A stretch of 35,718 bases of DNA from an uncultured Thermomicrobium sp. GTDB lineage: Bacteria > Chloroflexota > Chloroflexia > Thermomicrobiales > Thermomicrobiaceae. The notes under the pieces were generated by a model. That model searched no databases and was not told where the DNA came from. It was given only the letters and a program-made list of their open reading frames with translations. The translations under genes were made by a program, and so were the position numbers. This document shows positions 31,878 through 35,698 of this stretch, one piece after another (the stretch's first letter is position 1; each line of letters begins with the position of its first letter). The stretch covers positions 1 to 35,718 of the forward strand of contig CALIMB010000055.1 of the NCBI GenBank assembly GCA_938028665.1, read 5' to 3'.

Positions 31878-32930
31878 TCAGAGCCAACCTTCTCGATAAA
31901 AGAGTTCCGCATTAAGCACTGATGCGCCAGCGGCACCGCGGATCGTATTGTGCCCCAGCACAACAAAGCGGACGTCGAACACGGGGCATGGGCGAATACG
32001 CCCGACAACTGACGCCATCCCATGCTCAACATCGCGATCGAGAACTGGTTGGGGGCGGTCAGGCTGCTCTACTACGACAATTGGCTGGCGTGGTGCGCTG
32101 GGAAGTTCGAGTTCTTGTGGCCGAGCACGGAAGGAGCGGAGGACATCGGCGATCTCGCTCGGTGTCGCGGGACGAGCGAGCTTCAAGCTGACCGTCTCCA
32201 TATGGCCGTCGCGGACAGGGACGCGATTGCAGTGGGCGCTGAGTGTGAGCGGGGCGTCGTGGAATGTTCCGTCAGCCCAGGTTCCCAAGATCTTCCGAGA
32301 CTCCGCTTCGATCTTCTCCTCCTCACCACTGATGAAAGGAACCACATTGTCGACGAGGTCGAGTGAAGGAACACCGGGGTAACCGGCACCAGAGGCGGCC
32401 TGGAGTGTCGTGACGATGCCTTTCTCGATCCCAAAGGCAGCGTAGATGGGTTTGAGCGCTAAAACGAGATGAATCGTCGAACAGTTGGGATTAGCTACGA
32501 TGAAGCCCTCACGCCAACCGCGCAGTTGTCGTTGGCGCTCGATAGCGCGTGCGTGGTCCGGATTGACTTCTGGAATAAGCAGGGGAACATCAGGATCCAT
32601 CCGGTGATCACGTGCATTGGTGAAAACCTTTTTCCCCTCGGCAGCAAGAGCCTCCTCGATCTCTCCAGCCACCCCGCCCGGGAGAGCTGAGAAGACGAGA
32701 GGGCTCTCGATCGGCTCCTCAATATGCTTGACAACAAGGTCGCGGACTTCCTCGGGTGGTGCCGCGCTGATTCGCCAGTTCACTGCCTCGGCATATCGTT
32801 TGCCGGCGGAACGATCGCTGGCGACGAGCTCCGCGATTCGGAACCAGGGATGTTTAGCAAGGAGCTGAACAAAGCGCTGCCCAACACTGCCCGTTGCTGC
32901 CAAGATGGCGACATCGATCCGTTCGGTCAC
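31878..32930 (-). CDS. asd: aspartate-semialdehyde dehydrogenase
   Basis: A 350-residue NADP-dependent reductase converting aspartyl phosphate to aspartate semialdehyde, the branch point toward lysine, threonine, methionine and isoleucine. The N-terminal nucleotide-binding loop is LAATGSVGQRF (10-20). The nucleophile is C150 in NPNCSTI and the acid-base residue H233 in SAHCNRVPV. The sequence pattern (SGAGYPGV, SAHCNRVPV) is that of the archaeal/yeast class rather than the E. coli class. The GTG at 32930 has GGGAGG five bases upstream. A leader of about 230 bases with a Thr-codon peptide and terminator precedes it, and hom is divergent. Confidence 0.94.
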   Translation of the reverse strand: MTERIDVAILAATGSVGQRFVQLLAKHPWFRIAELVASDRSAGKRYAEAVNWRISAAPPEEVRDLVVKHIEEPIESPLVFSALPGGVAGEIEEALAAEGKKVFTNARDHRMDPDVPLLIPEVNPDHARAIERQRQLRGWREGFIVANPNCSTIHLVLALKPIYAAFGIEKGIVTTLQAASGAGYPGVPSLDLVDNVVPFISGEEEKIEAESRKILGTWADGTFHDAPLTLSAHCNRVPVRDGHMETVSLKLARPATPSEIADVLRSFRARPQELELPSAPRQPIVVVEQPDRPQPVLDRDVEHGMASVVGRIRPCPVFDVRFVVLGHNTIRGAAGASVLNAELFYREGWL

Positions 32931-32956
32931 TGTAGCCTCCCTTCTGTGCGTCCTCT

Positions 32957-32993
32957 AAACGACAAAACCGGCAGAGGTCTAGACCTCTGCCGG
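32957..32993 (-). terminator. asd attenuator terminator (3:4)
   Basis: A perfect 26-base palindrome (32968-32993; arms CCGGCAGAGGTCT and AGACCTCTGCCGG) is followed on the minus strand by TTTTGTCGTTT (32957-32967). This is a textbook intrinsic terminator, 27 bases before the asd start codon, so it can only act as an attenuator of asd. Confidence 0.88.
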
Positions 32994-33016
32994 CGCTCGC
33001 TCGAGATTGACCGCGA

Positions 33017-33100
33017 TCACGGGCTGCCCGAGCGCACGCCGGCGCAACGTGTTGCGGTTGTCCCGGTTGTGGTCAGTGGTGCTGCGTGCACGGCGTTCAT
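33017..33100 (-). CDS. Thr-rich leader peptide of asd (27 residues)
   Basis: An ORF from ATG (5' base 33100) to TGA (33017-33019). It contains PLTTTGTTATRC: six Thr codons in eight (ACC ACA ACC GGG ACA ACC GCA ACA, 33050-33073). It lies between a good promoter and the asd attenuator. This is the same logic as the E. coli thr leader, though that one controls thrABC. The GAGGG ribosome site is almost directly next to the ATG, so translation may be weak or start differently. A second overlapping frame begins at 33119 and ends inside the terminator palindrome; it lacks a ribosome site and a codon run. Confidence 0.75.
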   Translation of the reverse strand: MNAVHAAPLTTTGTTATRCAGVRSGSP

Positions 33101-33164
33101 CCCTCGGAGTCGTGCCCATTGCGCGAGGCGCCCAGGCTCGCCTACCCTGTCAGCGCCTGGGCTG

Positions 33165-33193
33165 ACTGTACCAGGTAGCGGGAAGAAGGTCAA
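33165..33193 (-). promoter_or_regulatory. promoter of the asd leader
   Basis: Minus strand: TTGACC (33188-33193), 17-base spacer, TACAGT (33165-33170). Initiation near 33158 gives a leader of about 228 bases. The promoter lies within 55 bases of the divergent hom start codon, so the two genes' control regions overlap. A hairpin (33130-33137 with 33055-independent partner 33155-33162) would form at or near the RNA 5' end. Confidence 0.65.
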
Positions 33194-33217: not shown

Positions 33218-34216
33218 ATGCAGACAGTCGGGGTTGCCTTGCTCGGGGTAGGCACAATCGGGAGTGCGGTTCTTCGCACCATTCTCCAAGAGCGCGAGAC
33301 ACTGGCGCAGCGGACAGGTCTTGCGCTTGAGGTTCGGTGGGGAATGGCGCGGCATCCCGAGCGTGTGGTGCAGGCGGGATTGCCGGAACGCGCAGCAACA
33401 ACCTCGATCGATCCGATTTTGGAGGATCCCGCAGTAACGGTCGTAGTGGAGGCGATGGGTGGGGAAGAGCCGGCAGCAACCTATATGAAACGGGCCCTTG
33501 AGGCAGGCAAACACGTTGTGACGGCGAACAAAGAGGCGCTGAGCAAGCACTTTGCCGAGCTCGTGGCGACGGCACGCCAACATGAGCGGGCATTGCTCTT
33601 TGAGGCAAGTGTTGGTGCTGGAATTCCCTTGATGGCCAGCTTACGGCAGTTGCTCACGGTGAACCGGATTTACCGCATCCGTGGCATCGTGAACGGAACG
33701 ACAAATTACATCCTCACGGCGATGGCGGAAGAAGGGATACCCTATCAGGAAGCGTTGCGGGAAGCGCAGCGACTCGGCTACGCCGAACCTGACCCGACAG
33801 CGGACGTTGAGGGATACGACGCGGCCTACAAATTGAGCATCTTAGCGTCACTTGCTGCCGGACGCCATATTCGCCCGGAGTTTGTCGAACGACGAGGCAT
33901 CACCGCAGTTACTCCAGACCAAATCCTCGATGCACGGGCGCGTGGTGGGGCGATGAAACTAATTGCCCAGGCCGAACTTGCAGACAGGAATTGGCACCTG
34001 CGCGTGCATCCAGTCTTTGTGCCGGGCAGTGACCTGTTGGCCCATGTTCGCCTGAACCTGAACGCGATCGAGTTGACCGGTGACCGGGTCGGAACGGTCG
34101 TGCTCTACGGTCCGGGAGCTGGCCCAGCACCGACAGCCAGTGCGCTGGTCGCTGACATTCTTGATGCGGTACGGTTCGGTCCTGCTTTACTTCCGATGCT
34201 CGAACCTTCCGTCTGA
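33218..34216 (+). CDS. hom: homoserine dehydrogenase (short form, no ACT domain)
   Basis: A 332-residue NAD(P)-dependent enzyme reducing aspartate semialdehyde to homoserine, the precursor of threonine and methionine. The nucleotide loop is LLGVGTIGSAV (about 8-18), with K105 in TANKEALS, IVNGTTNYILT (158-167) and EPDPTADVEGYDAAYK with the catalytic K205. It ends right after the catalytic domain, lacking the C-terminal ACT domain that gives threonine feedback in many bacteria, so allosteric control by that route is unlikely. AGAGGAAG precedes the ATG. A weak promoter, TTGCGC (33119-33124) and TACCCT (33143-33148), is possible. It is divergent from asd. Confidence 0.93.
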   Translation: MQTVGVALLGVGTIGSAVLRTILQERETLAQRTGLALEVRWGMARHPERVVQAGLPERAATTSIDPILEDPAVTVVVEAMGGEEPAATYMKRALEAGKHVVTANKEALSKHFAELVATARQHERALLFEASVGAGIPLMASLRQLLTVNRIYRIRGIVNGTTNYILTAMAEEGIPYQEALREAQRLGYAEPDPTADVEGYDAAYKLSILASLAAGRHIRPEFVERRGITAVTPDQILDARARGGAMKLIAQAELADRNWHLRVHPVFVPGSDLLAHVRLNLNAIELTGDRVGTVVLYGPGAGPAPTASALVADILDAVRFGPALLPMLEPSV

Positions 34217-35586: not shown

Positions 35587-35698
35587 GCGCTCATCGTGCG
35601 GAGTATCTTTACTCCGCCGGCATTGGCACCTGGCGCAGGGGCCTGCGCTGGTTGCCGGGTTTCCTCGGGCCGTTCCCTCCACCGCTCTGGATGAGCGC
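35587..35698 (-). promoter_or_regulatory. SAM-I (S-box) riboswitch aptamer
   Basis: On the minus strand the SAM-I core is nearly complete: closing helix P1 GCGCTCATC (35690-35698) with GATGAGCGC (35587-35595), then AGAGCGGTGGAGGGA, GGCCCGA, GAAACCCGGCAACC, a P3 hairpin (GCGCAGG-CCTGCGC), GGTGCCAATGCC, and a P4 hairpin (GCGGAGT-ACTCCGC). SAM binding stabilises P1 and lets the downstream terminator form, lowering metX when SAM is plentiful. The promoter must lie at or beyond the right window edge. Confidence 0.96.

Follow-up and report, generated by a model that had tools for sequence, protein, structure and literature searches.

A threonine-codon leader peptide and predicted transcription attenuator upstream of asd in Thermomicrobium and other Thermomicrobiales

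The aspartate-semialdehyde dehydrogenase gene (asd) of an uncultured Thermomicrobium sp. is very probably controlled by a classical ribosome-mediated transcription attenuator that senses charged Thr-tRNA, with Ile and Met sensed as well in relatives. We read this from a window of 35,718 nucleotides (the whole stretch of contig CALIMB010000055.1 that was analyzed), where a promoter, a leader open reading frame (ORF) and two mutually exclusive RNA helices precede asd on the minus strand, and from related genomes, in which the control codons are conserved and both helices are conserved and covary. Leaders of this kind were found in 44 Thermomicrobiales genomes belonging to five families (f1–f5).

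The regulated gene, asd (31878–32930, minus strand; GTG start at 32930), is apparently monocistronic in the source genome. Its product matches TIGR00978 (asd_EA) with 455 bits against a cut-off of 301, and the closest matches are from bacterium HR28 (95%) and Thermomicrobium sp. SKYB23 (90%). The neighboring homoserine dehydrogenase gene hom (33218–34216, plus strand) is divergent from asd, an arrangement shared by those relatives from f1 and f2 that were inspected, and the 287-base gap between the two genes holds the promoter, leader ORF, terminator and U tract on its minus strand; no other gene was found on that strand between hom and the asd leader. The promoter that the initial annotation placed in front of the leader was recovered as an extended −10 type (33165–33193, minus strand), with TTGACC (33193–33188), a 17-nt spacer containing TG, and TACAGT (33170–33165). 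It is the sole promoter match in 500 bases, with 0.0 expected, and a TG-extended promoter was recovered upstream of all 24 leaders that directly precede asd, the −35 element being variable in genus g5. From the promoter spacing, transcription of asd is predicted to start at about 33158.

A likely hom promoter, TTGCGC-18-TACCCT (33119–33148, plus strand), lies within the asd 5′ leader, and equivalent hexamers were spotted by eye in the leaders of several relatives. The two divergent transcription units would therefore overlap and could interfere with each other. A conserved stretch between the asd promoter and the leader ORF was considered as an RNA element and rejected, as it fits the divergent hom promoter on the opposite strand better. 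Elsewhere in the window, a SAM riboswitch (RF00162, 86 bits; 35588–35697, minus strand) lies upstream of metX, encoding homoserine O-acetyltransferase, so that methionine is under separate RNA control here.

The leader ORF had been described as 27 codons long. An ATG at 33100 and an in-frame TGA ending at 33017 are indeed present, but the conserved start is a GTG at 33091–33089. Because this GTG is conserved in genus relatives, unlike the ATG, at whose position some relatives carry ACG or GTG, we regard it as the probable start; a purine-rich, Shine-Dalgarno-like stretch precedes it in the same relatives. The resulting ORF of 24 codons (33017–33091, minus strand; stop TGA at 33019–33017) would encode VHAAPLTTTGTTATRCAGVRSGSP, its first residue being Met if GTG is the start codon. 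Six of eight consecutive codons (ACC ACA ACC GGG ACA ACC GCA ACA, 33050–33073, minus strand) specify Thr, as annotated. Across all six reading frames, no other eight-codon window of the 35.7 kb holds at least six Thr codons, and 18 of 20 shuffled sequences contained none. Attenuators characteristically have a short leader ORF in which codons for a pathway end product are clustered.

The attenuator reading had been made to depend on conservation of the Thr codons among asd orthologues. When the leaders were aligned from the stop codon, Thr occupied codon −13 (ACC, 33058–33056 in the source) in 23 of the 24 asd leaders. This near-invariant Thr is spelled ACC, ACT, ACA and ACG across the set; that all four synonyms occur shows that the amino acid is kept, not the RNA letters. 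Across the same 24 leaders, 118 of 384 in-frame codons specify Thr, versus 14 and 13 in the other two frames, and in-frame stops are absent from codons −24 to −9. From this frame conservation we infer that the leader ORF is translated.

The RNA at the end of the ORF can form either of two helices. Segment 2, GCCGGCGTGCGCTCG (33029–33043, minus strand), lies within the leader ORF just ahead of the stop and forms the 5′ side of the antiterminator; segment 3, CGAGCGAGCGCCGGC (32989–33003, minus strand), forms its 3′ side. Of the 15 positions 14 pair, 13 by Watson-Crick and one by G-U pairing, and one is a mismatch, the same count as first proposed. Segment 3 shares CCGGC with the intrinsic terminator, whose stem is the perfect palindrome originally reported, CCGGCAGAGGTCTAGACCTCTGCCGG (32968–32993, minus strand). 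The U tract, TTTTGTCGTTTA (32956–32967, minus strand), follows directly; it is interrupted by G and C and confined to the minus-strand side of the palindrome. The stem ends 37 bases ahead of the asd start and the U tract about 27 bases ahead of the GTG, the latter distance again as annotated. The terminator is thus situated between leader ORF and structural gene, and the antiterminator overlaps both the end of the ORF and the 5′ arm of the terminator, as in known attenuators.

Every asd leader can form the antiterminator (−36 to −50 kcal/mol). Most outdo nearly all of their shuffles. Over the asd and lysC-asd leaders together, the 2:3 duplex of a few has only a modest edge on shuffled sequences (L006, 51/300; L004, 21/300; L241, 57/200; L236, 41/200). 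In the alignment the antiterminator is 84% paired with a covariation of 0.268, compared to 0.139 in shuffled alignments (0/500) and at most 0.075 when the register is slid; full pair swaps include C-G to U-A and G-C to C-G. The terminator is 92.9% paired with a covariation of 0.296. These values bear on whether the element might instead be a fixed partial terminator, or a source of small RNA, with the Thr-rich ORF incidental to it. A strong terminator by itself would reduce asd expression, and terminated RNAs of ∼200 nt could act independently; a fixed terminator would not, however, require a covarying antiterminator, and the Thr codons are kept in frame despite synonymous change, which leaves this explanation very unlikely.

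The initial annotation also likened the geometry to that of the classical attenuators, and both the order and the geometry of the parts are correct. Classical attenuators also have a protective 1:2 helix, by which termination is restored when the leader goes untranslated. The helix involving segment 1 exists, but its support is confined to the genus: GTGCACGC (33084–33091, minus strand) is able to pair with GCGTGCGC (33039–33032), a helix that is not significant for this sequence alone (50/300 shuffles), and helices of this 1:2 type are supported in some Thermomicrobium leaders and unsupported outside the genus.

Folding of the source sequence gave the terminator base a probability of 1.00 with a ribosome masking the stop, and the antiterminator a probability of 1.00 when the stall was placed at codon −13 on a transcript still lacking the terminator 3′ arm. 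For the full transcript at equilibrium under a Thr stall, the terminator base is narrowly ahead of the antiterminator (0.57 vs 0.43), which implies a kinetic switch; some relatives have a low modelled probability for the antiterminator. From these structures we infer ribosome stalling, its timing, the efficiency of termination and a response to Thr, in the following sequence. RNA polymerase would initiate near 33158 with a ribosome trailing on the leader ORF. With ample Thr-tRNA the ribosome would reach the stop at 33017 and mask segment 2, leaving segment 3 free to fold with the 3′ arm and form the terminator; transcription would end in an RNA of ∼200 nt, and asd mRNA would not be made. With Thr-tRNA scarce, the ribosome would stall at the Thr codons, its A site holding codon −13 and segment 2 lying immediately ahead of its leading edge, and segments 2 and 3 could then pair ahead of synthesis of the terminator 3′ arm, allowing asd to be transcribed.

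Stalling could in principle have another cause, namely a leader peptide whose sequence halts the ribosome making it, or one that works in trans, rather than codon-specific hunger. The C-terminal tail AG(V)R(S/A)G, conserved within f1, would suit such a peptide, but it coincides with segment 2, so that RNA pairing explains its conservation. Moreover, the control residues switch among Thr, Ile and Met by lineage, as suits tRNA supply and not a fixed arrest peptide, and we consider arrest by the peptide extremely improbable. Scarcely any weight falls on a ligand-binding riboswitch or a tRNA-binding T-box leader as governor of the terminator either. The source genome does use a riboswitch in this pathway, the one before metX, but the asd leader matched no Rfam family above the gathering score and nothing plausible at E-values up to 10, and from genus to genus the RNA that links promoter and leader ORF shows poor conservation while codon identity persists.

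The predicted attenuator recurs among the related genomes, 51 of 61 of which gave a match in the asd protein search. In 24 genomes (families f1 and f2, G005 included) the leader directly precedes asd. A covariance model located it in another 20 genomes (families f3, f4 and f5) before lysC in a lysC-asd operon, with peptides such as MMSMTIMITTTTTTPGWPGGESA and MNDRGRTTTGTMAMTVISTTEITTIPPAGSGVRG; among the 20, G035 has a reading frame that is disturbed near the stop. The view that f3–f5 lack the leader, none lying directly before asd there, was discarded on finding it upstream of lysC. Asd had been called an unusual target, as it also feeds lysine and methionine; it is less odd than first thought, since the leader precedes lysC-asd in three sister families, and of that operon it is asd that lies behind the leader in the source genome. 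In eight f1 and f2 genomes, no leader of this kind was found before thrC-thrB or lysC. Beyond the order, a search of the position directly before asd, as opposed to that before upstream operon genes, found no Thr leader of this layout in other Chloroflexota or in other phyla, and the only two covariance-model matches outside the order, among 158 genomes of the class, proved to be ordinary gene-end terminators.

Codon content indicates what the leader senses. In the control region of the asd leaders, Thr, Ile and Met codons are enriched over background 7.6-, 2.7- and 3.2-fold, and Lys codons stand at 0.2-fold, in a set of related sequences; for the lysC-asd leaders, likewise related and non-independent, the corresponding values are 6.0-fold for Thr, 5.5-fold for Ile and 6.7-fold for Met. 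Lys codons are not enriched in the control region of either group. Thr, Ile and Met are the amino acids made via homoserine. The proposal that Thr-tRNA supply controls asd is thus supported by codon conservation and refined in scope: order-wide the sensed set is likely Thr, Ile and Met, and in Thermomicrobium essentially Thr. By listening to the whole homoserine branch, the leader offers a likely answer to the puzzle of asd feeding lysine and methionine.

Citramalate synthase (cimA) provides a Thr-independent route to Ile. Leaders without an Ile codon occurred in 10 of 14 genomes with this enzyme, compared with 0 of 28 genomes that lack it (Fisher 7e-7, uncorrected for phylogeny, with few events on the tree, mainly in one clade); cimA was called by TIGR00977 above its cut-off, in a set in which some genomes are incomplete. 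Both cimA and Ile codons are present in G002, G009, G010 and G019. A search for ilvA added no information, because many related enzymes scored. The pattern is suggestive of a loss of Ile codons where Ile need not be made from Thr. We put forward only tentatively, at slightly less than an even chance, the full proposition that an order-wide attenuator of asd or lysC-asd reads Thr, Ile and Met together and not lysine, with a codon set that follows metabolism, Ile codons disappearing from lineages that possess the citramalate route.

Leaders of similar layout precede other amino-acid genes in the order. In the source genome, a leader ORF with an aromatic run (QVWFAYYFTPPALLAG; peptide MGSVSLQHQVWFAYYFTPPALLAGRRVLKR) and a terminator lie directly upstream of a DAHP synthase gene (TIGR01361, 388 bits; L223, G000:C14:74847-74965). 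Further DAHP synthase leaders, reached through the same covariance model as the lysC-asd leaders, range from Thermomicrobium to family f4 (L226, L227, L229 and L230), and this group is likely a Trp/Phe/Tyr attenuator. In six genomes (L165 in the source genome, L160–L164 in the others) ilvB has an upstream leader ORF with branched-chain codons and alternative pairings; in the source, the 3′ end of the leader LLSLVVVLLILTGLPLAGG is complementary to GAGCCTCCC, and the latter sequence alternatively folds into a hairpin ahead of ilvB without a good U tract. The model also picked out, in other genera, a leader and terminator of the same layout upstream of pheS (L224, G008:C25; L228, G009:C4), with a peptide that has His codons and few Phe codons. 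Given these sister aromatic and branched-chain leaders, attenuation seems general in the amino-acid control of the order, which suggests that it is a main mode of such control in Thermomicrobiales.

In enteric bacteria, thrL combines Thr and Ile leader codons, exclusive antiterminator and terminator helices and a stop near segment 2 in control of the aspartate pathway. The asd leader resembles thrL and its operon thrABC in having a Thr-codon leader, mutually exclusive helices, a stop near segment 2 and an aspartate-pathway target. It differs in that the target in the distantly related Thermomicrobiales is asd or lysC-asd, thrC-thrB there having no leader, and in that Met codons are also enriched; the Rfam Thr_leader family (RF00506) gives no match to the asd leader above the gathering score. 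In the open literature covered, which did not include the 2010 survey by Lopatovskaya and colleagues, reportedly a broad survey of attenuators, we found no case from Thermomicrobia or Chloroflexota, and an earlier prediction for Thermomicrobium is possible.

Leader-peptide attenuators of Actinobacteria and Firmicutes extend the same principle beyond Proteobacteria, for other amino acids. Leader-peptide systems had been known only in Proteobacteria and Actinobacteria, to which Firmicutes hisS was added (PMC2965389), and no conserved RNA structures were seen before threonine operons in Actinobacteria (PMC1262725). The branch point of aspartate kinase and aspartate-semialdehyde dehydrogenase is not among the attenuated genes in either study (PMC1262725, PMC2965389). 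With the Thermomicrobiales leaders, Thermomicrobia and Chloroflexota gain a clear comparative example of classical attenuation, and 44 leaders whose codon sets differ alongside differing pathways allow a natural test of the way in which regulatory peptides track metabolic change. The predicted mechanism is the same as that of thrL and trpL: a known mechanism with a new target in a new lineage.
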